Part shown: positions 11,481-56,993 of the stretch, one piece after another
Layout: each line of letters starts with the position of its first letter
How positions within the stretch are numbered: position 1 is the first letter of the stretch
From: Rutstroemia sp. NJR-2017a BVV2
Taxonomy: Eukaryota; Ascomycota; Leotiomycetes; Helotiales; Rutstroemiaceae
Assembly (NCBI GenBank): GCA_002946415.1
Contig: NJPS01000057.1
Coordinates: forward strand, 294,836 to 358,835
Direction: 5' to 3'
Length of the DNA: 64,000 bases
Notes under the pieces: model-generated
The model's input: only the letters and a program-made list of their open reading frames with translations
Database searches by the model: none
Told to the model about the DNA's origin: nothing
Translations under genes and position numbers: made by a program

Positions 11481-11786
11481 ATATAGTTTATATATAATAT
11501 CTCAAAAACTGTAATAATAAATATATCATCGGTATATACCAATTTTGGCTTCAAACTAAAAATATATAATACCCAACTTCTAGATATAGTAAACTCGGAT
11601 ACCGGAATAACGAAAGTAGAGGATTTAAAGAATCTATATAAACAACTTTTACTTGATATCAAGTTCATTATATAATAAATAGTATAATATTATAACTAGA
11701 AATATAATATAGAACTAATATTTAAAGAAAGAGATAAAGTTTACTTTTTTAAACAAAATATCAATATAAAAAGACTAAGTAACAAA

Positions 11787-12739: not shown

Positions 12740-13289
12740 TATTATAATATATTTAGAATAAAAGCCTGAGAACCTTAGATTCAGAGAATAACTAACTACT
12801 ATTTAGTAGAATCGAACTATTATATAAAGATTATATAATAAAGTAGAATCTAGGTATCTATACCTATAGTATAGAGATAGGAAAAAGGTATCTATAATTA
12901 TCGATATACCTTTGTAAAGAATAGTACTATAGGAATAAGGTATCTGAAAAGGGATAAGTACTAGAGTAATTAATAGTACCTTTAGTAGAATCTTAGACTA
13001 GAATTATATAATATCTTAATAGTTCCTAGTAGTTCTAGTAGTGGGAATTAATAGAACTGATAAGATAGTAGAGAACAAAGGTCTATATAACTAGATAGTT
13101 TTCCTTAATATATAGAGCTTCATATTTAATAACAATTACTACTTGTTTATATACTATTACAATTATAATCGATTTCTTATATAACTGTTTTCAATAATAA
13201 ACCTATAATAATACTATTAGTTATCGTGATTTTTAGTACTCGAAACCCTAACCACTTCTATATAACTCAGAAGACAAATATTCGTAATA
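12740..13289 (+). repeat. 3' LTR of chromovirus A1
   Basis: 550 bp, partner of 6427-6976. It is slightly less mutated than the 5' copy in places (for example the CCTAACCAC run near 13246), showing that the two LTRs took different hits. Followed by ATATA at 13290-13294. Confidence 0.92.
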
Positions 13290-14435: not shown

Positions 14436-14985
14436 TATTACAAATACTTATCTTCTAGATTATATAGAAGTAATTAGAATCTCGAGTACTAGAGATTATA
14501 ATAACTAATAATATTATTATAGATTTATTATTAATAATAGTTATATAGAGAATCGATTATAATTATAATGATAGATAAATAAATAGTAATTATTATTAAA
14601 TATAAAACTCTATATACTAAGGAAAACTATCTAATTATATAGATTTTCGTTCTTTATTATTTTATTAATTCTATCAATTCCTATTACTAAGATTATTAGA
14701 AACTACTAAGATATTATATAATTCTAGTCTAAAGTTCTACTAAAGATATTATTAATTACTTTGATATTTATTTATTCCTAGATATCTTATTTCTATAATA
14801 CTATTCTTTATAAAAGTATATTGATAATTATAGATATCTTTTTCTTATTTCTATATTATAGATATAGATATCTAGATTTTATTTTATTATATAATCTTTA
14901 TATAATAATTCGACTTTATCAAATAGTAATTAGCTATTCTCTAAACTTAAGATCTTTAGACTTTTATTCTAAATATATTATAATA
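14436..14985 (-). repeat. 3' LTR of chromovirus A2
   Basis: 550 bp, reverse complement of the LTRs at 6427-6976 and 12740-13289, with ends TATTACAAATAC and TATTATAATA. Equal length in three copies fixes the LTR boundaries for this family. Confidence 0.9.
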
Positions 14986-17879: not shown

Positions 17880-18386
17880 CTTAGTAAAGATTAAGATATT
17901 ATCTAAATATATTATATAGTAATTATTAAGATATTTTCTTAATAAATTATTAACCAAATATATATATATTACTAGTATATTGATAAGTCCAAAAAATATA
18001 ACCTAGTATTCGTAGTATCTATATTATATATAAAATACTATTTTCTATTTATTTCTTTTCTTAATTCGGATTAAGTTGAATTCTATATATTAATTCAATT
18101 TAGTAAAATATTTAGTTTTCCCGATTCGATCTTATAACTTATTAACTAATAGTAATAGATATCGATTTTTAATAGTAATAGTATTGAACTTATAATAGTT
18201 AATAACTAATTTATCTTTTTTATCTTCTTTCTTTAGTATAAAGAAGATTGGGATTCTTATAAATAAAAAGGATTTCTTAATAAATCCTTTCGCTAAATTC
18301 TCGTCAAGATATTCGCGAAGTAATCTAAGTTTCTCTTCTGATAGTAGTATAATTAGTAAAAATAGTAACTTCTTTTCTTTTTCCAA
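17880..18386 (-). pseudogene. chromovirus A2 reverse transcriptase
   Basis: The open piece 18132-18386 (minus) is nearly the same protein as the RT of A1, with L-D-E-N-L-A-K-G-F-I, L-K-K-E-D and K-L-V-I-N-Y. Further along in the same frame the catalytic box is Y-L-D-N (GAT at 17903-17901, AAT at 17900-17898), the same Asp-to-Asn change as in A1. Confidence 0.87.
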
Positions 18387-18632
18387 TTTTATTTTATAAT
18401 CCCAAAACTAGTACTTTAATAAAGTATTTTTATAAAGCTTTTTCTTGAAGATCTCGATATATTTCTAATATTATATTAGTATATCCTTTAATAGAGGATT
18501 CTAGATTAAAATATCTGATTTTAGTAAATATATTATCTTTTTTTTTTTAACTAAATATTAATCTTATAAGATCTTATATAAACTTTATCTTATATTTATA
18601 TTTATTATATTATATAGTTATTACAATTTAGT

Positions 18633-18648
18633 TAATATATAGATTATA
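18633..18648. repeat. Left target-site duplication of LINE copy 1
   Basis: TAATATATAGATTATA occurs here and again at 34984-34999, immediately beyond the LINE 3' end. Chromovirus A2 sequence is continuous across the two copies when compared with A1. Confidence 0.8.
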
Positions 18649-21600
18649 TATTAATATTATAATTCTCGCAATTTTCGAAATCGATTATAAATAGTAATTA
18701 ATCCCAATATTAGATTTAGGAACTTAGTAAGCCTATAAGTTAACAAACTATAACTCGATATAATACTAGCTATAGAAGTAGTAATAGTTTCGAATTTACT
18801 AATATAGATAGAAATATATAAATACGAAACTAATATAGGAAAAATATATATAGAAAAGAAAGGGAAAACGGAAATAGAAATTATAAATAAAACCTTTATA
18901 AAGTTTAAGTTTATAAGAAAGAAAAATAAAATATAGAATATAATCCAAAAGCTAGTAAAAAGATAAAGAAATCAAAATAGAGAATAAGTATTCTATAAAT
19001 ATATAGAAGAGGTATTTATAAAGTTTAAGAAAGAAAAGAGAAATATCTTATATAAGAAACCAAAAAGGATCTAGACTAATATAGTTAAAAATAGCTTACT
19101 AGTATATAAAGAATATAAAGTATTATTTATAGTGAAAGATAAAACTATATTTGTAAAACCAAGTAAAATCCTAGTAAAGGAGATCAACTAGGTAATAGAT
19201 AAAGAAGTAATATAAAGGATCTATATATTTCTAGAGGAAAAGATAATATTGATATTTACTATTAAGGAAGCTAAGGCAAAGTAGCAAAGTAGAATAAAAC
19301 TAAAAGAAGTATTTAGTAAAAGTACCGAAAATAAGAAGCAGATAGTAGATATAATAGTATTTGGAATATCTAGATAAATAGTTATAGAATTTACAAATAG
19401 CTAACTCCTTAAAGAAGTAGAAAGGCAAAATCTTAGATTATAAATAAAGTATATAGTAGCTATTAGGATTAATAAGAATAGAGGAAATATAATATTAATA
19501 CTTGGCTTTAATATCAATAAAGAAGTAAATAGAATAATCGATCAGAGAATATTATAGAATAGTATATTTCTATTAACTAAGTAATATATTAAAGAGATAC
19601 TAACTTTATAATATTTCAAGTATTAGAAATATAGTTATAGAATAAAGTAATATACTACTACTCAAAAGTATTATATATAGTATATAAATATAGAATATAA
19701 TATTAAGTTATACCTAATTACAAAATCAGTAGTAGCTAAGAGTTATATAAGTTGTGATATAATAGAATATAATGTAATTGATAAAATCTGTTTATATAAT
19801 CAGCAAGATCAATATAGAGCTATCTAGATATATATAAAAAAAGAAAGAAGATATCTAATAAATAAATTTTAGTTTCAATTCGGTTTCTAAATAGATAGAT
19901 AGTTTACTTTAAACTTAAGTAATATAACCAAGCCTGAATTCATAATTATAAACTACAAATAGATATATTATAGAGGAAAACTATTGGTAGTAAATATAAT
20001 AGATATAACTAGAATAGTCTTAATTAGTAAGTTCTTTTTAGACTTTAGTTTAAATATCTAGCTAAGTATAGTATTGAATCTACTAAATATCTCTAGGTTT
20101 ATTTAGAATACTAAGATAAATATAGAAATAACTAACTAGTAATAAATAAGTTCTCAATTCTATAATATAATATATATAAGAATAGAGAAGTAATAGAATT
20201 GTTATTCTATAAAGAGAAGAAAGTAATAATAATAATAATATAGGAGCTCTAGCTAAACTATAGAAGTAGTATATACTATCTGAGCTTAGTAGCCTATATT
20301 CCGGTATATAAAAGCGAATAAAGAAGTTACTTATTTATAAATAAAGTTATTAAAAAAGAAAACTAGAAATATAAGATCTAGAATAAGGATCTATATATAA
20401 TAAAGTTTCTATCGAGTTTAGGGATTATCTGGATTTATAGTATTTACTTGTAATCTTTAGGTAATTATAGAAATATTAACTATAAATACTTATTTAACCT
20501 ACTATAACTTATATTCAATAAGGATAGTGAATATATTATAATAGATAACCTCAATCTTTATTATCTACTATAGTCTAAGCTATAATATCTATTATATAAC
20601 CAAACTGATAAGCTACTTAAGATAATATAATAACTTAATCTACTTACCTCTTATAGAAACAAAATCTTCTCTATTATATATAATAAAATAATAATCGATC
20701 TAATATTTTCTATTCCAAGATTTATAAATTGCTTATTAGAATATATAATTATAACCAATAAAGAATATAGATCCGATTATATAATAGTATACTTAAGATA
20801 GAATATCGAGTTAATAATAGTAGTAAAACAAAGATATAGAAACTAGAAACTTATAGATATTATATAGATCAAGTAAATAGCTCTATACTTACCAAGATAT
20901 AATATCGAGTAATATATAATAAAGAATTTGAAAGTATATACTATAAAGCTTATCTTCCGGATCTAGAGAATTATCGATATTATAATTTTATAGAAACAGA
21001 ACTTAGAGAGAACTAAATATTAGTAGATATCGAAGATTAATATAATAGTTAGAGTAGTATATACTATATACTAGTAGTAGTTTGCTAATAGAGAAAATAA
21101 ATAACTGAAATAGTATATTAAGTAACTTCAGAAAGAAAAGAAATATATAATTTATTAAGTAAAGTAGTTAATCTAGAAATAAATAATATATAAGTATTGC
21201 AAAATAGAGAAGTTATAAAAACTAATAAGATAGAATAGGAGAATAATAGTAGAATAGAATATAATCTCGATACTTAAGCTCGAAGAAAGTAGAAATATAA
21301 ACTTATTTGAAGAAAAGGTATATATACTTATTTAATATTTCTATAGAGATAGATAATATCTTCCTAGTACTCTATAATAGCTATTAAGTAATCTAGAAAA
21401 TATCGAGCTAGATAATATCGATAACTAGAAATACCTATCAGAATTCGAGATTAGTAAAAAATTCATTATCAAAAAGTTTACTAATCTACTCCAAAGATAC
21501 TTTAATTATTCTATATTAAGAGAAGACCAAATTCTATACTACTTCTTCAAGAAGCTAAACTAACTATTTATAGAAGTGATTACAAATTTAGCTTAAGTTA

Positions 21601-22784
21601 ATTAGAAGTTCGAGTATATACTAAGAAGTTTGAAAAATATATTAATAATAATATTATAGAAACTTGGAAAACCGAACTATAAATAAGTGAAATTCTAGTA
21701 GCTAATTATATTACTAAATATATTGAGAAAGCTGATCGAAAAAGCTATAGCTTAGAAAATCTATAATATAACCAAATAATATAATCTACTATCAGATAAG
21801 TAGATAGAAATAAAAGTATAAAGAAGTATAGTAATAGTATTAAACTTACTTATCTTAATAATCAAGTTAACCTAAGTAAGTAAAGGATAAATAGTAATAT
21901 TACTTTTACTAGATATAGTAAAAGTATTTAATATAATTATCTACTTATATCTAGTAATAGTAATCTAGAAACTTGATTTTCTTTAATAGATTAGTAAATA
22001 GATAATAAGTTTCTTAAGTAATAAGACTATATATTTCTTATTTGCTAGTAAGATATTAGAAGAGTTCTTACTATAAGTAGAGATATCCCAAAGATTATTA
22101 CTTTTATTAATACTCTTTCTGCTTTATAATATAGAATTTATTCGGATATACTTATTCCCGAAATAAGAACTATATATAAAAGGGTTTATCGATAATATAT
22201 ATTTAATTATAATAAACTTGAGTATAGAGACTAACTATGATAAGTTTATAGATATATACTAGAAGATCCTAGAATATACTTAGTATTATAGAATATACTT
22301 TGTATTAGTAAAATATAAACTTATTTACTTTATAAGAATATAGAACAAATTCAACTTAGTAACTATAATCTAGTTTAAATAAAGAGCAGAATATATCCTA
22401 TTACCGAATATATAAATATTTAGTATTTAGCTCGATATCAAACTCAATTAAAAAGTATATATAAAGATAGTTCGAGAAAAGAATACTATAGTACTAACTA
22501 TATTTAGTAGGCTTAATCAGATAATCTAGAGCCTAATACTATACCAAGTATAAATCTTATATATAGTATATATATATATTATACTACTATACAAAGTAGA
22601 AATATAATATAAATCTAGAAAGAGAGATATAGTTAAGTAAGAACTCGAGCAAATATAAGTAATATATCTACGAAAAATTATTAGAATATACTAAACTATA
22701 CCTATCTATAAAGTAGAAGTAGAAGCAATAATCTCTCTAATCAGTATATATTATAATGAGAAACTTAAGAAATTCTTCGAGTAT
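18649..22784 (+). mobile_element. Tad-like LINE copy 1, 5' part (ORF1, endonuclease, most of RT)
   Basis: Matches the LINE at 37554-42476 throughout. ORF1 ends in a CCHC-like knuckle near 19610-19660 with Cys turned to Tyr. ORF2 starts near 20130. It has an apurinic-type endonuclease, including the N-L-N-L-Y-Y remnant of the G-D-x-N-x-H motif and S-D-Y for S-D-H. The RT has F-L-L-Y-N and G-F-I-D-N-I-Y-L-I (GAT AAT at 22191-22196). It is interrupted at 22784 by an LTR element and resumes at 34230. Stops are TAG/TAA throughout. Assignment to the Tad clade rests on ORF layout and RT motifs. Confidence 0.85.
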
Positions 22785-22987
22785 TGTAAAGAAGTATAGA
22801 TATACCGTCGATATATATAGTAAACAATATTATAAATACTATTATTTAGTAATAAGAGTAAATAAGAGAGAAGAAGATATTAATTACAAATATCTATACT
22901 AGTACTAGATATAAGAGATAAAACCTTAGAATAGAAAAATATTTAATTTGGCTACTAGATATATACTATAACTTCAATTCTATTATA
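22785..22987 (-). repeat. 3' LTR of element C
   Basis: 203 bp, beginning TGTAAAGAAG on the plus strand and ending CTATTATA. Pairs with 34027-34229 over its full length with transition-type differences. It keeps an unmutated TG end, whereas the partner has TA. Confidence 0.88.
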
Positions 22988-23029
22988 TAGATCCTCTTCC
23001 GAAAACAGTCGCTTTTTGACTACTTTAGA

Positions 23030-25600
23030 CTACTTCTCTTTTACAAATAATAGTTCTTCTTTGTTAGATTCTATTACCACTTCCTTATTCAAAATATCAA
23101 TATCTAGTTCAACCTTAGATATAGATATACTACTAGTATAAGAGAGCTCTAGATAATAATAAAATAACTTCTTCTTGAAAATATATTTTTCCTTCTCTAT
23201 TATTTGCTGGTATAATTCCAGAATCACAGATACTGTTTTCTTGTACTACTGTACTATAAACTTATAAATAGCTTTCTGATCTTTTCCCAATAATATATCT
23301 TTCTCTTTCGTTACTATAAGAAAGCTTTATTGCCTTTGGTATACTAGTATATTCGAAATTACTCTTAGACCAACTAGTTCTATCTCTACAAAAAAGCAAT
23401 ATAATATAGTATTATACTAGTTCGGAAATCCTGAAGGAGTAGCTTTAGGTAAGACTTGATTACGATATACTTCTAATAGTATACTCTATATCTCTTCTTT
23501 CTGTATTTCTAGAATCTTATTATCTTCCTATACTATAACAAACCAAAATAATATTATATATCTGATCTTCGTTATAGATCTAGTAACTCTATATAGTATT
23601 GATAGAAATATAATCTTAGTATCCCTAGATTTATATAGTATAAACTTCCAATCTAGATCAAGTATATACAAATCCTCCTTTATAAAGATCTAGTTATTAA
23701 TCCGATAGACAAAATCGTCAATCTGCTACCTTTTTGCTTTTATTCTATCCCATCACTATCCTAACTTATACTATATCCTAGATATAAAGAAGATATAGTT
23801 CTCGTTATCCTCCTTATCTATCAATACTATCTCTTGGATTATCGATACTTCTTGTTCATTTACTAGTAACTTAGGTATATTCAAATCGATATAATAAAAG
23901 TAAGTCCTATTACTAGGAAAACTATATTTAGTATAATAGAGGTAACTGATTAGTCTCTATACTGAATCAGATCTCAAAGCTATATACAATATATAGTAGG
24001 CTGGGTCTTATCATATCAACTGTTATATAATCAAGTAGAATATATTTCTTAGCTAGCCAATATTTTTGTATTTATTAATCTCGTGAAGATACTAGAAATA
24101 GAAGTTAAACTTATTATTCAAATATTGCTTAAGCTCCGGATTTTCAAACCACCAAATAAATAAGAGAATTATTATACTTTCTTTATCTTCCTATCATATA
24201 GCAATTATCTTATCCTATATTGCGAGAATAGCCTCCTAATCGAAAAAGAAAATAGTACTAGCTTAGTTATATACAAACTTATATAGCTTTAGACTATCTA
24301 ATAGTCTGGCAAAGCAGTTGGTAATACGAAACCACTTATATATATTCTTAGTAGTCTTCAATTTTCCAATATTCAGTCGGTAGTCCTAAATATACTTCAG
24401 CCTCTTATCCAGCTGTTTATAATCCAAGTATTTAGTATATAGTTCAAGGTAATCTACTATAAGCTATCTATATAGGAAGCAGACTTTCTTAAATATATAT
24501 ATCTTTTTCAAGAGTTTCATACCTATTATAGTCTCCAGCGATTTTCTTTTGTTGACTGCTATTTTCTATCTAAGTATTATATCTTCCGAGTACCGATAAT
24601 TCTTCAACTTAGTTGGCTTTTCTTTCTTTATCTCTTCTTTACTATTTTCGTTATTACTATCTCTAATCAGTTTATCCTCTACCTTATTTATTTCCTCTTT
24701 ATCTAGGTTATCTTTATTACTAGAAACTATTCCGAACTCTTCTACCTTCTATTATAGTATCCGAAGTACTCTTGATCTGAAGCTCCTATCCCTACTCTGA
24801 TCTATATTATCTATCCCCACCAAATTTTGCCCTATCGGGTAAAGTGAAACTTCCCTATTATTACCTTCTTCACTCTTATCCTTATCCAAATCCATTACTT
24901 CTCCTTCGATTATATCTTCTCTAATTTCTTCCAAAAATCTATATATACCAAACTTTATTCTTAGCTTTTGCACTTGTTATACTAATATCTCTTATATATC
25001 CTTCTTTCTATTTTTGCATACTCTATCGAAATCATCCGAGTTAATAGCCTTAGTATCTTTAACCTATTTTTTCCTACTTATAAATCTTTCAATAGTTGCT
25101 ATATTCACTAATCATATAGCCTCTTCCAGTTCTATAAACTCTATAAGCTTTTGAATAAAGTAAAGAAAATTTATTAAGTAGTCCTTATTATCTAATTATC
25201 TAACCACTTTACTATTATTCTTCTAATATTTTGCAATAACCTTTTTTGTCTCTACTATTTTGTTTCTTCTAACTTTATTACTTTCTATAATATTGAAGAT
25301 TTCGAACTATCAACTAGCGAATTCGTTCTCTAAGATATATATTCTAAATACCTTACTATACTAGATAAACAAAAATATCTTCTCTATTATATCTAAAATC
25401 TTATTATGAAATTGAAGTATATTCTATAAGATCTCCTTCTCTACCTTATATCTTTCTTCTACTAGTATTTATAATAGAAACTCCTTTACTTTCTATATAC
25501 TCCTGAACTGTCCTCCAACTTCAGAATCATTACTATATATCTTAGAGAAAAGTATTATTATTATATTATCTTCAGATAAAACTATTTTGTAAGTATAGGA
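23030..25600 (-). pseudogene. Element C accessory ORF in sense direction, possible 2OG-Fe(II) dioxygenase domain
   Basis: A single minus-strand frame can be followed from about 25600 to the TAA at 23030, roughly 850 codons, broken by TAG/TAA/TGA. The two longest open pieces (24752-24973 and 23030-23227) are in the same frame. The N-terminal half is rich in Lys, Glu, Ile and Arg and looks helical. The middle has W-W-F-E-N-P-E-L and L-Y-K-F-V-Y-N. Further on is Y-Y-I-D-L-N-I-P (Tyr 23893-23891, Asp 23887-23885), then Q-E-I-V-L-I-D-K-E-D-N-E-N, a doubled Trp region, and I-L-Y-R-V-T-R ... L-F-W-F near 23540-23610. If Tyr stands for His (CAT to TAT), these read as H-x-D and distal H...R boxes of a 2-oxoglutarate/Fe(II) oxygenase. 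That is inference. It could instead be an unrelated retroelement-specific protein. The frame agrees with that of pol. Confidence 0.5.
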
Positions 25601-26164
25601 ATTTTTTGTATTTATAATAAGGAGAGAAAAAAAGTTTGAAAAGTTGAAAGTTCCAAAATCGAAAAAGAAAGAAAAAGATATCTATTTAAGCTAACTCTAC
25701 TATAGTTATTTATTACTTCTGTTAATGAAAATTCACCTTTTTTAGCCAAAATTCACTACTTTCTAGCTTAATTAAGCAAATTTTTTAAATATAAAGTCGG
25801 TTTCTGCTTTCCAAAACCTTTCTTTCTCTTTCTTATTTTTCTAATCTCTTCCTATAAGCAGATTAGTATCTTATCTCCTTCCCTATTTACTATATATTTC
25901 TCTTAATAATATAGCTTTCCCTATATACAGTTATTATATATACTTACTATAGGTTCTCCTAATAATTCTACTATACCTCCTATACTATAATACAAATATA
26001 GGTACTTTAATAAAGAACTATTTGGTATTATACTACCTTTACTAGAAGTAAACGAAGGAAATACTACTGATGATAATAGTAATCTATCTAGTATATAAGT
26101 ACTATCTACTACTAGTATTTGATCTTTCCTTCCACCATTTTTCATACTAATATTATTAAGTATT
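25601..26164. other. Spacer between the divergent accessory ORFs of element C
   Basis: Non-coding in appearance, with A- and T-rich homopolymer runs and polypyrimidine stretches near 25820-25870. The two accessory ORFs point away from each other here, so it would be the place for a shared promoter. A 74-codon minus frame at 25921-26145 has no support. Confidence 0.4.
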
Positions 26165-27259
26165 CTTCATATATACAAAGCCCCTATCAGTATATTCCTA
26201 CCAAAATTCACTACTAAGTATATTTGCGAGACTGAGCTATACAATCTAGATCTAGTAGATCTCATTCTGGCCAATCTCCAGACTACTAATATAGAATATC
26301 TGGTACTTTCGGACTACTACTTTGAGATATTATAGTTCGCAAATACTATCTATCAGATAATACAAACAATAGTTTGCAAGTTTAAAGCTACCTTTGTACT
26401 ATATCTAGTTATTTGCCTAGCTAGATAGTATTGTAGTTACCTTCTTATTAGTCCTAATAAACTAGTTGTGAAAATCTGTAGCTAATACTACAATAGAGAT
26501 CGAAATAACCAAATATTCTTATCCTTCTCTGATCTGGATAAGAATACTATTTTAAGTTATCTTGATTATAAAGAATAGATTCAGGTTCTTCTCAATAATA
26601 GTAATAAAGTAGATATTCAAGAATACTATATCTATATTATATCCCCTTATCTAGGATATAATCACTTCCCTCAGGTTTCTTCCTCTCTTCAAATATATAC
26701 TTCGGTCAAAACAACTGGATAAGAACTACTAGTATCTAGAGCTAGAATACCATTAATAGATCAGATAGTAGTAATATATAATTACAATAAGATAGAGATT
26801 TTGGGTAGATATAAATCGAAATAGCTTACTAAGACTAAGATAGATAATATTGCTGAGAGTATTATATATTCTACTAAGAAGCCTTATATTTATAAGGGAT
26901 CTAAAAAGATCAAATCGAATCTATTCCTATTTTCCGAATATATCCAGGATAGTAATAATACTCTTTTATCTTCTACTACTATAGGTACCTTCTCTCTCAA
27001 ACTATCCAAGATCAAACTCAACTTTATACTACCTATCAGTAATACTAAATTAGTACTACCTTACCCTTTATCCGAAAGTAAGTATAAGAGATATATATCT
27101 ATTGGGAAGCTTTCTATTACTATAGTATCCTACAGAATCACCTATTTAGTTAAGAAGGCTACCCAAGCTTCTTCTGTAAGCAAGTATCAGCTAGGACCTA
27201 GTACTACTGATAAAGATATTGCCAGAATACTATAGACTGAGATAAATAGAATATAGTAG
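26165..27259 (+). pseudogene. Element C antisense accessory ORF, unknown family
   Basis: One plus-strand frame (frame 2) of about 365 codons is continuous from 26165 to tandem TAGs at 27254-27259, with only TAG/TAA inside and no frameshift. It runs opposite to gag-pol. The N-terminal third has an ordered, hydrophobic pattern (for example C-E-T-E-L-Y-N-L-D-L-V-D-L-I). The rest is rich in Ser, Thr, Lys, Ile and Pro and looks disordered. No catalytic motif is recognised. Composition is less AT-rich than most of the element. It could be a separate older insertion, but no terminal repeats were seen at its edges. Confidence 0.5.
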
Positions 27260-27799
27260 ATAAATCTCTCTTCTTTCTTTTTTTTCTTTTTTGTATTTCT
27301 TCTCTTTCTATAACTACTACAGCCTCAAATTATAACCAGAATCCTATATATTAAAAGCACTTTTTATATCCCACCGATACCCAATATTAGATTAGTAGAA
27401 AGAAAGAGAATATAATGAAATAATTTCAATAAAAACTTAGCCTATACCTGTCTGTAAACTCCCAATTATAAAAATTTAACAATAAAATCCTCTTTGTTTT
27501 TTACTCTATTTAGGATATTATATACAATTTAATCTACTAGATAGAGTAAATTCATTATTAGCAGCTTTATATCCTTTTTTCTTTTCTTGCTCAGTTAACT
27601 ATTACTACCTCTTTTCCAAGACTATACCGAATATCCACCTCTATAATATAGTTACTTATTGAGTATCTTATCTTCTTATTTCCTTATCCCTTTTCTTTCT
27701 TCCTTATATTAATATACTATATTCGATAATTTCCTTATCCCTCTTCTCTAGTAATATCTCTATCGATTTCTCTTCTTACTGATCTAGTTTAGATCTTAT

Positions 27800-28900
27800 A
27801 CCTTCTATATCTTATTCCTTCTTATCTATATCTCTTTCTATCATTACCGGATCCTAAATTCTATATCTCTTATAAAATACTTTTATCTTGTTTCTGGCAA
27901 AGGTTCCTTGTAATTTAGTTCTATCTATCTCCTCTAGTAGGAATATTCCTTTCTTAGATATAGCCTTACTAACCCGAAATAGTCTAAACTATCTGTATCC
28001 AAGTTTTAGCTTTGATGATATATCAACTTCTTATAATATATTATATAATAGTACTACTTTGCTCTTCTATATATTCTACAAATATACTTATCTGGTATTG
28101 TTAAACTGGTCTTTATCTATAATCCTTATCCTTTTCTGTTTTATAGTAGCTTCTTCTAAGTCTTTATCTCTAAGTTGGATCTGCCTTATCTATAATACCA
28201 GAAACTCTGTTTTACTAGCAATATTTTCCTAATCTATAATCTGCTATATAGGTATATATATCTCAATTGGTAGTATAGCTTCTGACCTGTAATTGAGATA
28301 AAACAATGAGAATCCAGTTGTTGATTTTACTATAACCCTATCTACTAGTAGAACAATATATAGATTATCGACCTATTTTCCTTTTCTACTATCGGTTATT
28401 TTAGCTAAAGCCTCTACTATAGGTCTATAGCTTCTTTCGACTATTCTATTTGCAGGAGTATAGTAAGGTAATATTATTATTTATACTATACTATACTTCT
28501 TAGCTAGTATCTTAACCCAACCTTTATTTTCCAGACTATTATCTATAACTAACTTTCCAAAGATACTATATCTATAAATGATATCTTCCTATATAAATAC
28601 TGTAATTGATTCTAAGTTTGCTGATCTTAGAGCTTATCTCTCTAGCTAGCTACTAAGGTTATATCTTATTATAACTAGATACTTTTTCCCTCTATACTTA
28701 GATATATAGATTATATCTAGTTCTATCTTGCTCTATAGTATACTAGTCTATATTGGGTAAAGAGTCTCCTTCTAGCAGAGATTACTTCGAAATTGATATC
28801 TATTATATTACTATACAAAAGTTTTTATATCTTTATAGTACCTATCTCAGAAATATCTCTTGGCTACCTTCTGGTATATATTTTCCCTATCTTTATATCC
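27800..28900 (-). pseudogene. Element C integrase
   Basis: On the minus strand (same frame as RT) near 28380-28560 the sequence reads F-G-K-L-V-I-D-N-S-L-E-N-K-G-W, then L-P-Y-Y-T-P-A-N-R-I-V-E-R-S-Y-R-P-I. This is the D...N-G-x-x-E-R part of the DDE core, with Gly-to-Arg and His-to-Tyr changes. The C-terminal part near 27880-27960 has K-G-I-F-L-L-E-E-I-D-R-T-K-L-Q-G-T-F, a conserved tail in fungal gypsy integrases. The family assignment is from recalled motif patterns. Confidence 0.8.
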
Positions 28901-30049
28901 GGTTTCGTTATAGAGAGTATAAAGAACTACTAATCTTTCTTCTTCCGAATCAACTATTTTTCTCTTAGATAGACCTTTATTAGATCTTCGAAAGAGTATA
29001 CTATCTTGGACTCTATAGTTCAATATTCTAGCTTTGAATAAACAGAAATCTGACTTAGCAACTTAAGTTGGTTTCTTCAATATTATAAAGAATTCTACTA
29101 TCAATCTCGAGTCCAAACTCTATTCTCTTTCTACTAAGAAGGTTTGTATAGATATAATCCCGATTTCTCGATAAAGGATTACTTGGCAGAAACCTATATA
29201 TATATCTATAAAATCGTCGATTTCTTCTTCCTAGATTTCGAATTATAGTTCCTTATCTATTGCCGGCTTCCTAGATAGTCTATCTATAGTTATATATTTG
29301 TTTCCGAGAATATACTTAACCTCGAAGTCAAATAGTCAAATTTATATTATCTATCTAGTTATAAATATACTAGGCAAATCTGTAGTAGTTGAATTGAGTT
29401 ATACTACTAGTATAACTATATCGGTTTTCAATAGAAAATATATCTTATATAAGTAGTCCCGAATCTTTTTAAGAGTTTTTAGTACTCTTTTATATTCTCT
29501 TTTTGTAGTATTATAATTCTACTTAGCTAGTATCTATTAGCTACTATTATAGTATATAAGATATCTCTTCTTTTTTTTGTCCTATTATATTAATACTATT
29601 CTCTATCTACTTAGGCTTATATCAATAGCGAGGATTATAAGACCAGTACCGTGTACTATATCTAGCCTAACAAGAGCTGGTACTATAGTTAGTATTAACT
29701 TTAAACTATCTATTACTAGATTATACTTTGTTATCTATACAAAGTCGATACCTTTCTTTAGTAGCTAGTATAGTAGTATAGCTCTTGTAGTAAACAAGTC
29801 GATCTAAATTCGATAGTAGATATAGACCCTAATAAATACTTATATTTCTATTTGAGATTTATATAGTATCTAATCGAGTATCTTAAGAACCTTTTCACTA
29901 TCTAGTAAATATCCTTCTATATAGTAAATATAATTAATCAATTTAATCCTATCTACTTTGAATTGAGATTTGGGATCTATTGTTATACTAATTCTTTCTA
30001 TATTAGCTAGAACTTGGTCCAGATTATATAAATACTCTAGTACAAATCT

Positions 30050-30900
30050 CCGAATATCTAGTATAACCTCTATATTGCTATACTTTATCTATAGGTCCAA
30101 AATAGGTATATTATTAATAAAGATCCTATAGTACTTAAAGATATAATCTTTCAATATTATCTTTCCTATTTTTACAAACTAAGTAACAGAATTTGTAGTA
30201 CTCTGAATAAGAGTAGTATATTAGACTAGTCCTTTAGAAATTATAAATATAGTTATATTTCGGCTATTTGAATAAAGCGAAATTTGATTATAGCCAAAAT
30301 AGAAATCAATTAGCAAGATAATCTAATATCTAGCAAATTCTTCCGAAATTTCATCTATATTTAGTAGTAGGTTTATATCTCGAATTGTAATAATATTGTA
30401 CTTTATAGTTATATCTATAAACCTATACTTCCTGTTTTTTTTCTTAACTACAAACTATTGATTTCTGTATAGCCTATAGTAGTATTCAAGTATTCCTGTC
30501 TCTAGATATTTATCAATTATAGTATTAATTTCGGTAGCTAGATATCTAGGGACTACGAATCCGAGACTTTACCAAACCTTATATAGAATTATCTATATTT
30601 CTTGAGGAGATATAATATTATTATCTATTCTTCTATATTCCGAAAACTCGAATATTATCCCTTTCTCTCTTTAGAATAGTAATTCTAATAATATCTCCTT
30701 TTCTCGAGATATCAATCCTTCCTCGAAAATCAATTTCTTAATCCTTTCTATTATCAACCTATTTCCCTATCTAATATTCGAAAACTTTGGAATTAACTAT
30801 CTATCCTATTTACTTATTGGTTCAATTTTATCTCTTTGTTATTCTTTTTCAATCTATTTCTATTTCTATTCTGGATCTCTTCCAAGTACCGATTTATCAG
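30050..30900 (-). pseudogene. Element C reverse transcriptase
   Basis: Minus-strand frame with I-I-D-K-Y-L-E-T-G-I-L-E (near 30495-30530), F-V-V-K-K-K-N-R-K-Y-R, T-I-R-D-I-N, L-L-I-D-F-Y-F-G-Y and T-N-S-V-T-Q-F-V. The catalytic box reads R-I-F-I-N-N-I-P-I (AAT AAT at 30115-30110), where gypsy elements have F-L-D-D. Both aspartates are thus Asn. RNase H traces lie between about 29000 and 29950. Confidence 0.85.
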
Positions 30901-31499
30901 AGATTCCTTTTTTAATAGATACGATCTTATTAGCTTTTCTCTTATATATATCAAAAATACTAATAGTAGGAAAGAAATACTTTATTTGAAGTACTGTAAT
31001 TAAATCCGTTTCCCTTTGATTAGTAATATCCTTGCTAATACTCTATATACTTATATTAAAAGTATTTAGTTTGTCTTTCTCTGTTCTGAAAATATCCAAT
31101 CTACTAGATAAGGTAAAATTTCGCCGATATTTTTCTATTCTACTACTTTTAATACTTTTATTGCTAGGTAAGTATACTGTTTCTAGCCTAGCTATAAATT
31201 TCTCTAGAGAGTACTCTTCTTCTACTAAGAATCAGCTATACTTGTAATACGAATTATAACTTACTTTATTCTCTTATCGTTAACTATTATTATATACTAA
31301 TATCTATCTTAGTAAGAAAAGGTAAGTAAGCTAGTTATAATAAAGAACTAGCTCAATACGATATTATTCTATAAACTATCTATTATAAAGAAGTTGGTAG
31401 TTATACCAATACTTCTAATCTTGATTGTAATATTCTTGTATATCCTATTAAACTTCTTTCTTTCACTACTATATTCTACTATTCTATACTAAAGATCAG

Positions 31500-31600
31500 A
31501 TTATATTCCCAGACCGGTATATTCAGCAACTCTACTCGATATCAAGTCTATCTCGATACTACTATCGATTAATACTAGTACTTCTAGATTTCCAATTGTT
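31500..31600 (-). pseudogene. Element C aspartic protease active site
   Basis: The minus strand reads V-L-I-D-S-S-I-E-I-D-L-I-S-S-R-V-A-E, a retropepsin D-S-G-A pattern with Gly changed to Ser. It is placed between the zinc knuckle and RT, as expected. Confidence 0.7.
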
Positions 31601-32430
31601 ATCCTAACTTTTGGGCTAGTTATAATAAACGGTATCTTAACTTCCTCGAGTAGTACCGATTATACTTATATTGTTTCTCTATCGGATCTTGGTCTTATAT
31701 CGGAAAGTATAATAGTAGCTATATTTTTGAATAATATCTTTTAGAATATATCTAAGCAAGCTACGATCTCCTTCTTAGTAACCTTCTATAGCTTGTTATT
31801 AAGGATTTTGTTTATCAGTTCTATTGGATTAACTATATATCTAATTATATTTATATATTTCTTAATATAATAGATCATTCTTGGATCTACTTTCTTCAGT
31901 ACTTCTATCTATTCCTTATCAATATTAACCTCTTCTATATCTATTTCCTTACTTGATTTATCAGCTACCTCTACCGATAGTCTCTTCTAATTACTAGTAT
32001 AAGGGATCTTCAGAGTAGTTATCTTCTTTTCTTTTTGGATTCTTTCTTTAAGAATATATTACAGATCCTTCTATTACTCCTCAGTAACTAACTTCTTACT
32101 ACTGCGAAGAATAGTTATATATATATCGATCTCATTTTCTAGCTCTTTATTATCAGACTCTTCTATCTATACTACCTCCCCTGATATTCCTCTAATAGAT
32201 ATAATATTTGTAAGATAGCTTAGTATTGTTCATATTTCTATCTAGTTTGCAGTAATAGCCTCTACTTACTGATAAATTGCTATTTGCTAATATTTACAAA
32301 TAATATCTCTTCCCTTTATTCCTCTAGGAACCCAAACTATCTTACTCCTTTTCTCTACCTTTCTGTAATATATCCTCTTTTCCAGTATTTTATATACCAG
32401 CCCTTGTTCCTGATCAATAACGAAATCAGG

Positions 32431-32472
32431 ATAATTCCTTCGAAAATATCTCTCTTCTTAGTAATAGAAACA
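32431..32472 (-). pseudogene. Element C gag zinc knuckle with three of four ligands turned to Tyr
   Basis: On the minus strand, residue spacing fits C-X2-C-X4-H-X4-C exactly. The first Cys is intact (TGT at 32472-32470), but the second Cys, the His and the last Cys all read Tyr (TAC, TAT, TAT), and position 5 is TAA (Gln-type). Each change is a single C-to-T or G-to-A step. Confidence 0.75.
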
Positions 32473-34026
32473 AATTATAATTCGAGAATAGTAAAGCTCT
32501 TCTATATAAATACCAATTCCTGTAATCGGCCTATAAGGTGGATATAATAGGTCAACTCTCTTTGTAGTACCAGTTAGATATATATCTCAATTCGCCCTAC
32601 TAGATAGATTAAATCTAATCTATTAACTATTTGGAATTATATTTACTATTGTCCTTACCGATATAGCTAGTAATTCGAAAGTTCTCATTAGGTTCTCAAT
32701 CGTTCTATAAGAGATTTCGTGAAATTACTAACTGATAATAGATACAACGAACTACTTCTCTTTGGATATCTATATTATATTCCCAAACTGATCTACTAGC
32801 TGATTTAATATTTCTTATCCTTGGATATCCAAATCGAACTCTTATACTATTTTATTGCTTTCGAGGATCTCGATAGCAATCTTGGTTATCTTATTATATA
32901 CTATAGTAGCTAGCTCTTCGATATTGATCTTGAGTTTCTATATAACTTTGCTTCGGATTCCTTAAGGGAGATTATTTAAGAACCAGATTTCTCTTATATA
33001 GCCTTCAATTTGATTCTTTTTGAGAAAAGTAATAGATATAGCTGAAAATTAATAGATATATATTTAAATATCTATTTCAGTATCTCTCTTCTTATCCTTT
33101 AGTACTTTTAAAAAAGTATAAGAATTCATCTACTAGATCAAGTTATAATCTTTATACTCAGATACAAGAGTAGTATATAGCTTAGTCTAGTCTTGATCTA
33201 CTTATTCCGACAAGGTTTTGATATACTACTTTACTACTAGACTATAGTACTTTAGTAGTTATCTCATTTTCACTTTATCCTCCTACCTTATATCTTCTAC
33301 CTGATCTTCAAACCTTTCCAAGAACTCTGTAATATTATATCCCTCAAAATACAGAGTTCCAGGACTCTATAGTAGAGGAATCGAAAGTACTATCTTAGTA
33401 AATATTATAAATATAGATTAGTAGCTAACTTCTTATATAACCCCTGAACTTACAGAAGAAGAAGAGAGAGATATAGATACTTCTAAGAAGTTTTCGAGTA
33501 GTATAGAGTTCTGTAGTCTGATTAATAACAAATTCGAAAACCGATAACCAACTTGTATTACTAAGAGGAATACTAATATTATATCTTTTATAGTAGTCTA
33601 TCCTATTTTTAATAAATTAGAGTTTTCTTTTATAATATATCTCCTTACTACTATATATCCTATATCCCCTTCCGATTTCCTCTCTACTTGTTTCCGCTTT
33701 ATATTTATCTCTTTAGTAATTATCTTTATATCTATTCTTATAACTTATTCCTATATAAGACCTTATCTACTTTTGTGAAAACTTCTAGTTAATATATTTC
33801 AGAATCTCTATTTAGAATAAGAATTTTTTTTATCTAGCAAATCCTCTCTATTCAAGAGCTTAACCTTACTTCCTTTTCCCCAAAAGCTTTTATTCGCAAA
33901 TACTGAACTTTTAGCAAATAGTATACTCGATATCAATAAAACCGACTTCTTATCTCAAACTTATATTTCCAGATAACGGTATAATATATATTACCCTTAA
34001 CTATCGCTCCTTATATAAGTTACCAA

Positions 34027-34229
34027 TATAAAGGAGTATAGATATACTATCGATATATATAGTAAACAATACTATAGATACTACTATTCAGTAATAAGAA
34101 TAAATAAAGGAGAAGAGAATATTGATTATAAGTATCTATACTAGTACTAGATATAAGAAATGGAATCTTAGAATAGAAAAACATTTAACTCGGCCATCAG
34201 ATATATATTATAGTTTCAACTCTGTTATA
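34027..34229 (-). repeat. 5' LTR of element C
   Basis: 203 bp, partner of 22785-22987. It starts TATAAAGGAG, in which the first TG has become TA. The host LINE resumes directly after it. Confidence 0.88.
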
Positions 34230-34999
34230 GTATTAGAAAAATACTTCTACCTAGTAGGTCTATTAAGAATAGTATTTATAGATATAAAAAAGAGAAGATA
34301 ATAAGAAGATAAAACAGAACTTATCGAGTATCCCGACCAAATATACTAATTAAGCTAAAATACTTAAGTCTAAGAAGTAAGTATAGAAAGTATAATAAGT
34401 AAAAGATATAACTAAATAATATAGTATAGTAATAAAGAACTTGATATTAAGTAAAAATAGATTCAAACTATATAAAAGACTTAGTAAAGTAGAAAGTATA
34501 ATATTTATTTAGAATAGAATAAAGCAAATAAGTTATATATATTTTCTGAATATATAGAAAGTACTAGACTACGAATCCCTAATTTATATATATTACTATA
34601 CTAGTATAGAAACGATTGAGTATATCCTTTTATATTATAATACCAAGTAGATAAGAAGATAGTAATAAAGAAGAATAACTATTACTAAGTTACTCGATAG
34701 TCCAAAATAAGTATAATAGATAGCTAAATAGCTGATCTAAAATAGATAGTTCGAGTATTTCAGATTTGCTAACTAGTTGTAATATAAGTAGTAAAACTAA
34801 AGAATAACTAAGTAATATAATTATAAAGAACGAGAATAAAGTAAGTATATAAAAATAGGAAATATAAAGTAATATAATTAGTAGTTTTGTCTAAAGAGGT
34901 TCTACTAATATAATTAATTAGATTAAGTCCTCTTTATAGCCAATATTATATATACTAGTTAGCAGATAAGAAATAAATAAAAATAATATATAGATTATA
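34230..34999 (+). mobile_element. Tad-like LINE copy 1, 3' remainder with A-rich tail and target duplication
   Basis: Continues the LINE frame interrupted at 22784 and matches 41700-42440 of copy 2, including the R-I-P-N-L-Y-I-L-L-Y region and the C-terminal segment that in related LINEs carries a Cys/His cluster. It ends in GCAGATAAGAAATAAATAAA. The 16-bp duplication TAATATATAGATTATA occupies 34984-34999. Confidence 0.85.
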
Positions 35000-37412
35000 A
35001 TTTCTTAGTTATAATATTCTCAAAATTAATTAGTATTTTCTTAATAAAACCAAATCCATTTTTATCTATTTAGAATACTATTTTAGTTATATCTCAAATT
35101 CTTATATTTTATACTAAACTAATCTATCTCTTTTAGTTAATTATTTATTAACAAAATAGAGTTTATATAAAATTAGTTTCTCGAAAATTTATAATTTTGC
35201 TAATACTATAATTTCTAATATTATAAAATTTTCTATTACTTTTAAATCTATTATTGTTCGAAGTAAATATCTATTTATATATATTTTATAAAGAATCTAT
35301 TCTGATTCTAGGATAATTCTAAATTCCCTAACTAGTTTATTATTTATATTTTCGGTAAGTTATTTTTAATTAATTTTTTTCTAGTTTCGATTTATAACTT
35401 TAAACTTACTACTTTTTATAAAATTAAAGAACCTTTTCTAGATATCGATTATATTTTTCTAAATTATATTTAAATTCATTCTAGTTTTTATTCTAAGGAT
35501 TTATCTAATAGGAATATTGATATATTTAGTAGATACTTTATATCTAAAGATTTATAATATTATTCTTTATAATTGAGTTAGTTTCTATAATAATATATTT
35601 TACTAGTTTTTATAATTATATTAATAAATAATCTTCTAAAACTTTTTATTACTTAATAGATTATATTACTAAAACTCTTTAAATCCTTAATAGATTCGAG
35701 TTTCTTTCTATATTCTAGTAAAACTAATTTTAAATTCTAGTTTATAATAGTAATTTGTAATTAGTTAATCTTAGATATTCCGAATATTGTTCTAGAATCC
35801 GTTATTATCTAATAAGTTTATAAATTCTTTTTGTTTTCAAAATTTGATTTTATAATAACTAATTCTTTCTAAGAACTATATTTCTTTATATTTTGGAAAT
35901 TTATTTTAAATAGTAGTTTTCTTATTACTAAGTTTCTTTAGATATTAACTTATTTTCTTTTTATCTACTTTATAAATTAGATAAAAATCTTTATAGTAAA
36001 TAGTTTATATCAGTTATATATAATCTATTTTTTAGATAATCTAATAACTATTTATTATATTTAATTAATATCTAGATATAGTTCAATTACTATTTTGTTC
36101 TATTATAGATTTAAATTATTTCTTTTCTTTCTAGTTAATTTACTTAGATTTTATTTCTTAAGATTTCTTTTAATAATCTTTTATTTAATATCCTAGAAAT
36201 CTATATTCGAAATAAAGTTTCTATTTTTATTAATAATTTTATTTGTTTTAGAAAAGATTGTTTTTTGAATTTATTATATCTAATTATATAAAGTTACTAT
36301 AAATCTCTTCTCTAATATATTATTTTTTAGAAAACCTTAATCTTTTTTTATTTTATTAATATTATTAAAGATATTGATCTATATTACTAAAATATATTTT
36401 TCTTTGAAACTTATAATCCTTATTATTGATATAAATAATTTCTTTAATTAGATTATTTATATTATTAATTAAGTTTTTCTAAAATAATTCGAATTTGATA
36501 TTTCTTTTCAATCCCTTTATATAATAATTAAATAATACTATTATTCTCTAGTTAGTTTGATTTCTATATTTTCAGAATTCTGTTATATAATTAATTATAA
36601 ATCTGGTTTATTATAAACTAAAAAGTTGTTATTTTATAGTTCTTATAATATCGATATTTCTAAATATTTATTTGATCTCTTTATGAAATTCTTTATAACT
36701 TATAAATATAACTATAGTAATTACTATTATTATAGCTAGATTATAATTATTCTCGAAATAGTTAGATAGAAAAGGTTTAATTTATTTAACTATTTTGTTT
36801 CTTAGATAAAAAATAGTTTAGAGACTTTTAATATCTCGGATATCGAATTTATTAATATTGAATCTGAAATATATTCTTAATTATAGAAAAAAGGTTTCTA
36901 ATTTCCTTTTGTTATTATTATATTTATCTAATAATATAATCTTCAAAGTTTCCTAAAATCTAAATTTCTTTAGTTTATTATTATTACTATTACTTTCTTT
37001 GTTATTGATATTATTATAAACTATAATAATATTGCTATTATAGTTTAGTAGAGATATAATTATATTTATAATAAGTAATAAAATTAGTAACTAGTTTATA
37101 GGTTTTATTATTACTAAGATTACTAGAAGCTATTAGGATATTATATAATTCTAGTCTAAGATTCTACTAAAGATATTATTAATTACTCTAATATCTATTT
37201 ATTTTTAGATATCTTATTTCTATAATATTATTCCTTATAAAGGTATATTGATAATTATAAATACCTTTTTTCTATCTCTATATTATAGATATAGATATTT
37301 AGATTCTATTTTATTATATAATCTCTATATAATAGTTTGACTTTATCAAATAGTAATTAACTACTTTCTAAATTTAAAATTCTTAGACTTTTATTCTAAA
37401 TATATTATAACA
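35000..37412 (-). mobile_element. Chromovirus A2, 5' half (gag, protease) and truncated 5' LTR
   Basis: Reverse complement of A1 gag and protease (compare 7250-9100). Element A2 therefore spans 14436-37412 with a 16.3-kb interruption. The 5' LTR is cut: only 302 bp (37111-37412) match, and the other 248 bp plus the gag leader are missing or replaced. The outermost bases read ...TATAACA, so the terminal CA survived here although all other copies of this LTR end show TA. Confidence 0.82.
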
Positions 37413-37553
37413 AATATTTAACTCTATATTATACTATTTATAATATTATATAAATTAATAGTAGAGATAGATATATCAAATATCAATAATTATATTATTA
37501 TATATAACTTATTAATTAACTACTAATATATAATTATAATCTAGATTAATAAT
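37413..37553. other. Short AT-rich gap and left target duplication of LINE copy 2
   Basis: AATCTAGATTAATAAT at 37538-37553 recurs at 42477-42492. The rest is unassigned. Confidence 0.75.
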
Positions 37554-40500
37554 ATAGATTCAAATTCCAATTCTCGCAATTTTCGAAATCGATTGTAAAT
37601 AGTAATTAATTTTAGTATTAGATTTAGAAATTTAACAAATCTACAAACTAACAAACTATAGTTCGGTATAATACCAATTACAAAAGTAGTAGCGATTTCG
37701 AGTTTATCAATATAGATAGAGATATATAAATACGAAACTAATATAGAAAAAATATATATAGAAAAAAAGAAGAAAACAGAAATAGAGATTATAAATAAGG
37801 TTTTTACAAAGCTTAAGTTTATAGAAAAGAAAAAGAAAGTATAAAATATAATCCAAGAGCTAGTAAAAAGATAAGGAAATCAAGGTAAAGAATAAGTACT
37901 TTATAAGTATATAGAAGAGATATTTGTAGAGTTTAAGAAAAAAAAGAGAAATACTTTATATAAAAAGCCAAAAGAGATCTAAACCGATATAACTAAAAAT
38001 AGCTTATCAGTATATAAAGAATATAAAATACTATTTATAGTAAAAGATAAAACTATATTTACAAAATCGAACAAGGTTCTAGTAAAGGAGATTAACTAGA
38101 TAGTAAATAAAGAGATAGTATAAAGGATTTATATATTTCTAGAAAAAAAGATAGTATTGGTATTTATTACTAAAGAAACTAAAGCAAAGTAGTAAAGTAG
38201 AATAGAGCTAAAAGGAATACTTAATAAAGATATCGAAAATAAAAAGTAGATAATAGATATAGTAGTATTTAGGATACTTAGATAGATAATTACAGAACTT
38301 ATAAATAACCAACTTTTTGAAGAAGTAGAAAGACAAAACTCTAGACTATAAATGAAGTATATAATAGCTACTAGAATTAATAAGAATAGAGGAAGTATAG
38401 TACTAGTACTCAGTTTTAGTATTAATAAAAAGATAAATAAAGTAATTAATTAGAGAATATTATAGAATAGTATATTCCTACTAACTAAATAATATATTAA
38501 AGAGGTACTAACCTCGCGATATTTCAAGTATCAGAAATATAGTTATAAAGCAAAGTAGTATATTATTACTTAAGAATATTATATATAGTATATAGATATA
38601 GAATATAATATTAAGTTATACCCGATTATAGAATTAGTAATAGCTAAGAGCTGTACAAACTATAGTATAGTAGAGTATAGTATAATTGATAAAATCTATT
38701 TATATAATTAGTAAGATCAATATAGAACTACTTAGGTATATACGAAAAGAGAGAGAAGATATCTAATAAATAAACTTTGGTTTCAATTCAATCCCCAAAC
38801 AAGTAGATAATCTACCTCAAGCTCGAGTAATATAACTAAACCCGAATTCATAATCGTGAACTATAAGTAGATATACTATAGAAGAAGACTATCGGTAATA
38901 AGTATAATAGATATAATTGAAATAGCCTCAATTAGTAAGTTCTTCTTAGATCTTAGCCTAAGTACCTAGCTAAATATAGTATCGAGCTTGCTAAATACCC
39001 TTAGGTCTACTTAGAGTACCGAGATAAATATAGAAATAACCAACTAGTAATAAATAAGTTCTTAATTTTATAATATAATATATATAAAAGTAAGGGAGTG
39101 ATAGAGTTACTATTTTATAAAGAGAAAAGAATAGTAATAATAGTAATATAGAAGCTTTAGCTAAACTATAGAAATAGTATATATTGCCCGAGTTTAGTAA
39201 CTTATATTCTGATATATAAAGGCAAATAGAGAAGTTACTTATTTATAAATAAAACTATTAAAAGAGAAAGCTGGGAATATAAGATCTGGAATAAGAATCT
39301 ATATATAATAAAGCTCTTATCGAGTCTAGAAGTTATCTGGATTTATAGTATTTATTTGCAATCTCTAGGCAACTATAGAAATATTAACTATAAGTACCTA
39401 TTTGACTTACTATAATTTGTACTTAGCAAGAATAGCGAATATATTATAGTAGGCAACCTCAACCTCCACTACCTATTATAGTCTAAACTATAGTATCTGC
39501 TATATAATCAAGCTGATAAACTACTCGAGATAATATAATAGCTCGATCTACTTACTTCTTATAGAAGCGAAACCTTCTCTACTATATATAGTAGAACGAT
39601 AATCGATCTAGTATTTTCTACTCTAAAGCTTATAGATTATTTATTAGAATATATAATTGCAACTGATAAGGAATATAGATCCGATTATATAGTAGTATAC
39701 TTAAGATAGAATATCGAGCTAGTAGTAGTAGTAGAGTAGAGGTATAGAAACTGGAAACTTATAGATATTATACAGATCGAACAAATAATTCTATATTTAC
39801 CAAGATATAATACTAAGTAATATATAATAGAAAGCTTAGAAGTATATACTATAGAGCTTATCTTCTGGATCTAGGAGATTATCGATACTACAACTCTATA
39901 GAAGTAAAGTTTAGAGAAAACTGAATATTAGTAGATATCGAAGATTAATATAATAGTTAGAATAGTATATACTATATATTGGTAATAGCTTACTGATAAG
40001 GAAAATAAGTAACTAAAGTAGTATATTAAGTAACTTCAGAAAGAAAAGAAGTATATAATTTATCGAGCAAAGTAGTCGATCTGGAGATAGACTATATATA
40101 AGTATTATAAGATAGAGAAACTATAGAAGCTAGTAAGGTAGAATAGAAGAGTAATAATAGAATAGAGTATAATCTCGATACTTAAACTTGGAGAAAGCAG
40201 AAATATAAACTTATTTGAAGAAAAGATATATATACTTACTTAGTATTTTTATAGAAACAGATAATACCTCCTTAGTACTCTATAATAGCTACCAAGCAAC
40301 CTAGAAGATACCAAGCTAGATGATATCGATAGCTAGAAATACTTATCGGAATTCGAGATTAGTAAAGAGTTTATTATCGAGAAGTTTACTAATCTACTCC
40401 GAAAATACTTTGATTGTTCTATACTAAGGAAGGACCAAATTCTGTATTATTTCTTTAAGAAACTAGGCCAGCTATTTATAGAAGTGATTACAAACTTAGT

Positions 40501-56943: not shown

Positions 56944-56993
56944 TAAACAAAATATAAGCTATATCTCAAAAAGGTAAAGTATTTCATTATATA

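Follow-up and report, generated by a model that had tools for sequence, protein, structure and literature searches.

The locus studied here, a 64,000-nucleotide stretch of the Rutstroemia sp. NJR-2017a BVV2 genome (the window), raises the question of what is encoded in the long region that separates the integrase of an oversized Ty3/gypsy long terminal repeat (LTR) retrotransposon from its 3' LTR, and whether that region truly belongs to the element. The element occupies positions 22785-34229 (~11.4 kb) and is read on the minus strand. It is a single Ty3/gypsy LTR retrotransposon with two divergent open reading frames (ORFs) between integrase and 3' LTR, here called ORF A and ORF B (Table 1), and judging from its relatives ORF A would have specified a protein of ~800 residues with a C-terminal 2-oxoglutarate/Fe(II) (2OG-Fe(II)) oxygenase domain of the PhyH/DUF1479 type. 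We put the probability that the anatomy of the element and the identity of ORF A are jointly correct at roughly 0.85, a figure that excludes the role of the protein.

The element and its boundaries

The limits of the element had been proposed in a first-pass annotation from 203-bp LTRs and a duplicated host site, and both features stand up. The two LTRs differ at 31 positions, every one of them by a transition (31/31), GTAT is found on either side, and the insertion site occurs uninterrupted in related repeats at window ~41690 (GTAC), L017 (ATAT) and L016 (GTAT). Since the element is flanked by GTAT and an intact site exists in related host repeats, it entered an older repeat, duplicating 4 bp of the target. 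A chance pairing of LTRs is ruled out by these empty sites together with the second copy described below (C64), and an assembly artefact by the fact that this copy differs all along its length. The older host repeat can be followed around the element at window 18590-22792 and 34229-35001; an element-free second copy lies a few kb downstream, at 37490-42462, and there are more at L016, L017 and L026.

The assignment to Ty3/gypsy draws on the paired LTRs and the short target duplication, and on a reverse transcriptase-RNase H of the Ty3 type lying ahead of the integrase, although the integrase part is weak. A Pfam search of the window places RNase H (PF17917, E 2.2e-7) at ~29638-29396 on the minus strand, and the C4 copy matches the Ty3 reverse transcriptase/RNase H structure (PDB 4ol8, E 2.7e-9) over a segment equivalent to ~30530-29270. 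Downstream of these, integrase zinc domain PF17921 is matched weakly (~28945-28796, E 0.036, below the cut-off), and the integrase stretch gave no match against the PDB. Gag and protease had no match in the Pfam profile search; their region includes a protease-like motif. Thus, within the earlier placement of gag, protease, reverse transcriptase and integrase at ~27800-33900, reverse transcriptase and RNase H are borne out by profile and by PDB match, integrase is weak, and gag and protease stay without a profile match. Pol ends at ~27850, and no Pfam match to a chromodomain follows the integrase, a search whose sensitivity is lowered by damage from repeat-induced point mutation (RIP).

Copies elsewhere in the genome

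The search for copies covered the genome to which the window belongs (43.4 Mb in 79 contigs); the window copy is counted, and the numbers of places are lower bounds. A 601-bp gag-pol probe was found in at least 7 places, a pol-end probe in at least 4, each of two accessory-region probes in at least 3, and an LTR probe in at least 13, the window's two among them. A second full-length copy (C64:9896-21349, corresponding to window 22782-34233) lies at an unrelated site with ATAT duplications of its own and has both ORFs inside the LTRs, as the first-pass annotation would have it, and the copies that span the junction between pol and the accessory region contain both ORFs in 2 of 2 cases. Four others are truncated: C20 covers 22787-27625, with an LTR and both ORFs, and then passes into another repeat family, the rest of the element not being resumed within the next 37 kb; C4 covers 27797-34233 and continues into GC-rich DNA without an LTR; C44 covers 31871-34256; and C77, which has an insertion, extends over 30100-34233. 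C4, C44 and C77 lack the two ORFs but end before that region, and no LTR-to-LTR copy examined is without them.

Differences between the copies are of one kind. Relative to the window, C20 shows 725 transitions and 0 transversions over 4,833 bases, C4 906 and 3 over 6,437, C64 1,823 and 21 over 11,452, C44 333 and 8 over 2,386, and C77 846 and 28 over 4,134, and such near-exclusive transitions are the mark of RIP. Stops occur in every copy frame read, all such copies being broken, and gag-pol looks at least as old as the accessory part. The GC content of the window is 26.6%, with AT-rich kilobases as low as 12% GC.

C4 holds two copies, at ~716000-727000 and 769000-780055, which lie 53,066 bp apart and share 99.98% identity across 9,928 bases; the second extends to the end of the contig. 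This pair is probably an assembly duplication, and we counted the two as one because of their identity and the nearness of the contig end. An LTR at C4:716034, 4.1 kb from that of the C4 copy, was considered as the partner in a shorter element and rejected, since CTAT on both sides marks it as a solo LTR. C5 cytosine methylase domains occur at three genome loci (C47:250071, C79:69971 and C58:461305-462756), one with a 1486-residue open frame, and these are candidates for the machinery of RIP or DNA methylation.

ORF A belongs to a family with an oxygenase fold

We located the accessory frames from per-frame stop counts across copies; the limits of ORF A and ORF B are working limits set for the tests rather than mapped starts. 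As a null for stop density, we used 300 dinucleotide shuffles and took the fewest stops among six frames. ORF A has 37 stops in its 823 codons where the shuffles average 59.2 (sd 4.5), and ORF B 18 in 599 where they average 48.7 (sd 3.8), counts that 0 of the 300 shuffles reached in either case. The test is, however, unspecific: a wrong-strand frame is the most open one in both pol (53 vs 55 stops) and gag (47 vs 49), and the DNA to the left of the element passes as well (61 vs 81.0 stops, 0/300). We accept ORF A as a gene because homology settles what this test cannot. The earlier description of two long frames in opposite directions between integrase and 3' LTR stands as to position and direction, with ORF B the less certain gene of the two.

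ORF A matches its family with E 8.6e-56 and aligns with it over the full length, and residues conserved in the family keep its frame in use to ~190 bases from the 3' LTR. The closest relative, a Flavoplaca protein (P0001), is 31% identical to ORF A in a match that takes in 89% of the searched region, and its PhyH/DUF1479-like oxygenase domain, residues 353-659, lies within the part aligned to ORF A. The predicted fold of P0001 is that of an oxygenase, the nearest structures among the 50 matches listed being of the PhyH/DUF1479 group, YbiU/GIG2 type (4rgk, 7twe and 6akz; 13-14% identity), which differ from the ORF A family in having chains of ~400-450 residues. To our knowledge, proteins of the YbiU/GIG2 type have no link to transposable elements. 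A PhyH profile scored above the cut-off in 6 of 10 relatives, which were partly chosen for a listed PhyH domain or name, and in 0 of 5 relatives of another scan, and a precomputed PhyH domain is given for 9 among the 120 relatives listed. The family is widespread in fungi, and the positions of an H-x-D...H pattern and an arginine are kept in 70, 68, 71 and 70 of 71 relatives (alignment A4); we presume the former to be the metal triad. The suspicion of an enzyme fold in one accessory ORF thus proved well placed, ORF A falling in an oxygenase-fold family.

A C-x-x-H motif at P0001 residues 271-274, kept in 70 of the 71 rows of A4, and two more nearly invariant cysteines suggest a zinc site N-terminal to the oxygenase domain, a region that could be a nucleic-acid-binding part.

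Other identities were considered and set aside. As a DNA polymerase, ORF A was matched by 28 PDB sequences in phmmer, all so named, over residues 307-378 (E 6.2e-4 to 7.1e-4), which we read as compositional chance because nothing of the kind was matched by its relatives P0001 and P0006, the latter a Penicillium nucicola protein. The sole Pfam match in six frames of the accessory region was AAA_lid_TANC1, below the cut-off (E 0.41, or 0.12 for ORF A alone), and the sole NCBIfam match, methylphosphonate hydroxylase for relative P0070, was far below it (E 0.025).

The state of ORF A was read at 67 conserved columns, each kept in at least 64 of 71 relatives, in three copies. The window matches at 33 of these columns, C64 at 29 and C20 at 31. 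The metal-site aspartate and arginine R577 are kept in all three copies, and all five family-conserved histidines read tyrosine (15 of 15 cells), as RIP would cause. There are 22 stop cells: 19 occupy positions that are Q, W or R in the relatives, and the other 3 share a single glycine column. Given that the stops fall mostly at such residues and that the frame is full length, ORF A was probably uninterrupted when the element spread, and the mutation process that broke it is the one that acted on the rest of the element.

These data also bear on whether ORF A might be a host gene that was passively transduced and copied along without benefit to the element. Transduction of host genes by retroelements is known (PMC7264820; here and below, the papers cited are represented by excerpts), and the wide distribution of the family among fungi also speaks for this reading. 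A search of this genome with P0001, however, matched only the three element copies (E<=0.001) and no host copy, though 8 PhyH matches exist elsewhere in this genome; the full length and the probable integrity of ORF A during the spread also count against a passive passenger, and simple read-through would not be expected to bring along a second, divergent frame. We therefore regard passive transduction as unlikely.

Several observations weigh against our interpretation of the element and of ORF A. No more than two copies extend across pol and the ORFs together, and the ~550-bp interval separating pol from ORF B contains the break points of both C4 (27797) and C20 (27625), 2 of the 4 truncated copies. 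Neither ORF A nor P0001 has a Pfam oxygenase match, and the fold was computed on P0001 and not on ORF A. Both presumed metal-site histidines are tyrosine in 3 of 3 copies, so that past activity is not demonstrable. Among viral and prokaryote contigs, patterns were matched but none was confirmed as a relative that would show the genomic surroundings of the family. Finally, PhyH enzymes of known function act mostly on small molecules, which speaks against a role on nucleic acids.

ORF B

ORF B has no identified homolog: none of 7,989 scored candidates was a relative, and comparison with the PDB by sequence and by profile gave no match. DUF4187 was rejected, with E 0.87 and in only 1 of the 3 copies. 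ORF B nevertheless probably encodes a protein on the opposite strand, as suggested by its openness in three copies and by weak compositional signs. The competing explanation, that ORF B is not a gene but owes its openness, as a by-product, to RIP and strand composition, gains from this lack of homologs and from the pol and gag counts above, which indicate that the antisense frame of coding DNA mutated by RIP can be no less open than the sense frame. It gains also from a codon score trained on ORF A and pol, which ranks the three minus frames above the three plus frames across 25502-27300, and in which the best plus frame over 25502-26200 is not that of ORF B. This test mostly tracked strand composition, however, and left ORF B undecided. 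In favour of a gene, the stop rate of ORF B is the lowest of the segments tested, the best minus frame there having 37 stops; over 26200-27300 its frame scores best among the plus frames while no minus frame stands out; and the strand base skew weakens between 26 and 27 kb, the effect expected of a gene on the plus strand. We thus consider the by-product explanation doubtful, if a real contender.

Table 1 Features of the element and its surroundings (window coordinates)
Feature	Position	Strand	Remarks
Target-site duplication GTAT, left	22781-22784		Uninterrupted site in related repeats
3' LTR	22785-22987	-	203-bp direct repeat of 34027-34229
Purine run, polypurine-tract-like (putative)	22992-23000	-	Adjoins 3' LTR
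ORF A	23000-25468	- (sense of gag-pol)	2OG-Fe(II) oxygenase-fold family member (by homology), broken
ORF A part aligned to P0001 residues 241-711	23159-24556	-	E 6.2e-59 in this genome
ORF B	25502-27300	+ (antisense to gag-pol)	Open frame; better supported in 26200-27300
Interval from pol end to ORF B end	27301-27849		Break points of copies C20 (27625) and C4 (27797) inside
Pol: reverse transcriptase, RNase H, weak integrase	27850-31300	-	Pfam and PDB matches
Gag and protease region (approximate)	31200-33950	-	Order, open frame, presumed protease-like motif
Putative primer-binding-site position	34009-34026	-	Adjoins 5' LTR
5' LTR	34027-34229	-	203-bp direct repeat of 22785-22987
Target-site duplication GTAT, right	34230-34233		Matches left GTAT

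Origin of the frame pair

The shared gap in which C4 and C20 break beside pol could mark a module boundary, which leads to the question of whether ORF A and ORF B entered together as a separate transposon, for example with ORF B as transposase and ORF A as passenger oxygenase, and were captured by the gypsy element before it amplified. Fungal DNA transposons with a 2OG dioxygenase gene do exist (PMC12730594), and the lack of a homolog for ORF B would leave it free to be such a transposase. The terminal repeats that would bound 23000-27800 as an insertion in its own right were nevertheless not seen above shuffles within the window: between the cassette edges 22988-23300 and 27201-27900, the best repeats scored 11 and 13 against shuffle maxima of 13.5 and 14.5 (20 shuffles each), and by inspection without a null there are short, low-identity repeat pairs, none of which stands out as joining the edges. 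RIP could have masked short terminal repeats. On the other hand, no copy of either ORF was found outside the element in this genome, and with the frame of ORF A in use almost to the 3' LTR there is little space for a terminus. A separate transposon therefore seems very improbable.

In the origin that we favour, a Ty3/gypsy element of a RIP-active fungus would have gained the divergent frame pair between integrase and 3' LTR, after which the pair would have spread as part of the element, with gag-pol driving ordinary copy-and-paste. Because ORF A and ORF B diverge from near 25.48 kb, they may have shared a promoter there and may have been expressed apart from gag-pol. The oxygenase would have been active when the element spread and, by analogy with the orchid AlkB gypsy elements and the fungal TET/JBP DNA transposons, might have blunted host silencing.

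Possible role of the oxygenase and comparison with known elements

That the enzyme served the element, oxidising some modification of DNA, RNA or chromatin linked to silencing, is a tentative proposal by analogy, and one that we think rather unlikely to hold; a metabolite or a protein is no less possible as its substrate, and the PhyH/DUF1479 fold suits small-molecule substrates equally well. One could also speculate that the oxygenase was an anti-silencing enzyme that removed or oxidised methyl marks on the DNA or RNA of the element. The precedents are an AlkB-type 2OG enzyme of an orchid gypsy element, an m6A demethylase in vitro (PMC9289625), and the TET/JBP enzymes of fungal DNA transposons, for which a function against C-to-T hypermutation has been speculated (PMC12730594), and the host combines RIP-like mutation with three C5-methylase-domain loci. 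The nearest folds, however, are PhyH/DUF1479; no AlkB or TET structure is among the 50 structural matches listed for P0001, which is not evidence of absence, and no Tet_JBP profile is among the matches listed for the 15 relatives scanned. The copies, moreover, were mutated regardless of the oxygenase. We consider such an enzyme improbable here. Stronger still would be the claim that an ascomycete gypsy lineage encodes its own 2OG-Fe(II) oxygenase and a divergent partner against silencing by cytosine or RNA methylation, as a counterpart of the TET/JBP DNA transposons, which we hold to be quite unlikely.

The closest likeness is found in the 25-kb Ty3/gypsy elements of Phalaenopsis, which carry an ORF for an AlkB-type 2-ODD whose product demethylates m6A RNA in vitro (PMC9289625). 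Both are oversized gypsy elements with an extra ORF for a 2OG-Fe(II) oxygenase; as far as the excerpts go, the Phalaenopsis element is a plant one with an ALKBH-like enzyme active in vitro, whereas ours is fungal, PhyH/DUF1479-like, accompanied by a divergent second ORF and present in broken copies. The TET/JBP dioxygenases encoded by fungal DNA transposons (PMC12730594) likewise place a 2OG-Fe(II) dioxygenase gene in a fungal mobile element, although those elements are DNA transposons and the enzymes are of TET/JBP type. An antisense gene, brtn, is described for Boty/BcGypsy1 of Botrytis cinerea (cited in PMC7264820, PMC8365987 and PMC4227169), again a fungal gypsy element with an additional gene; the likeness is one of layout, and the excerpts of these papers mention no oxygenase for Boty. 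Gypsy elements of Postia placenta contain a dUTPase domain, and an additional ORF of unknown function is mentioned in the same paper (PMC2864245); the resemblance to ours is in having an accessory enzyme or ORF in a fungal gypsy element, although the enzyme is another and the fungus a basidiomycete; complex elements with additional domains have also been described (PMC3248453). The plant elements Retand, Grande and RIRE2 have antisense ORFs between pol and 3' LTR (PMC11963269, PMC7264820), and thus share the long region and the antisense arrangement, although in the excerpts their ORFs encode TRP28 or other domains and no oxygenase is mentioned. Accessory genes in this position, which the first-pass annotation took to be rare, are accordingly documented in plants and, as brtn, in Botrytis.

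Literature searches, limited mainly to open-licence papers, brought up no fungal LTR retrotransposon for which a 2OG-Fe(II) oxygenase had been reported. By analogy, the element may add to the instances in which mobile DNA has acquired an oxygenase of this kind, here by entry of a different branch of the superfamily. If fungal retrotransposons too carry oxygenases, the class would have been taken up several times by unrelated elements (orchid AlkB, fungal TET/JBP and PhyH/DUF1479), and repeated uptake of this sort would imply a shared benefit. The element also gives context to a family of uncharacterised fungal proteins whose members are open to direct assay.

Other repeats

Most of the window at 6-19 kb looks like further nested, RIP-mutated elements; 6426-13294 and 14367-18663 match the same C20 repeat family in opposite orientations. 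A unit of ~252 bp occurs in tandem at 56204-56701, within a site at 56204-60147, and the 3.4 kb that follow it have an 89% match to the DNA beside the LTR of the C4 copy (L009 1-3428). Finally, L024 and L025 (C25 and C74, both at 627000-633000) share an identical 6-kb stretch at equal coordinates, in which there are an LTR-like match and tandem repeats of ~99 bp.

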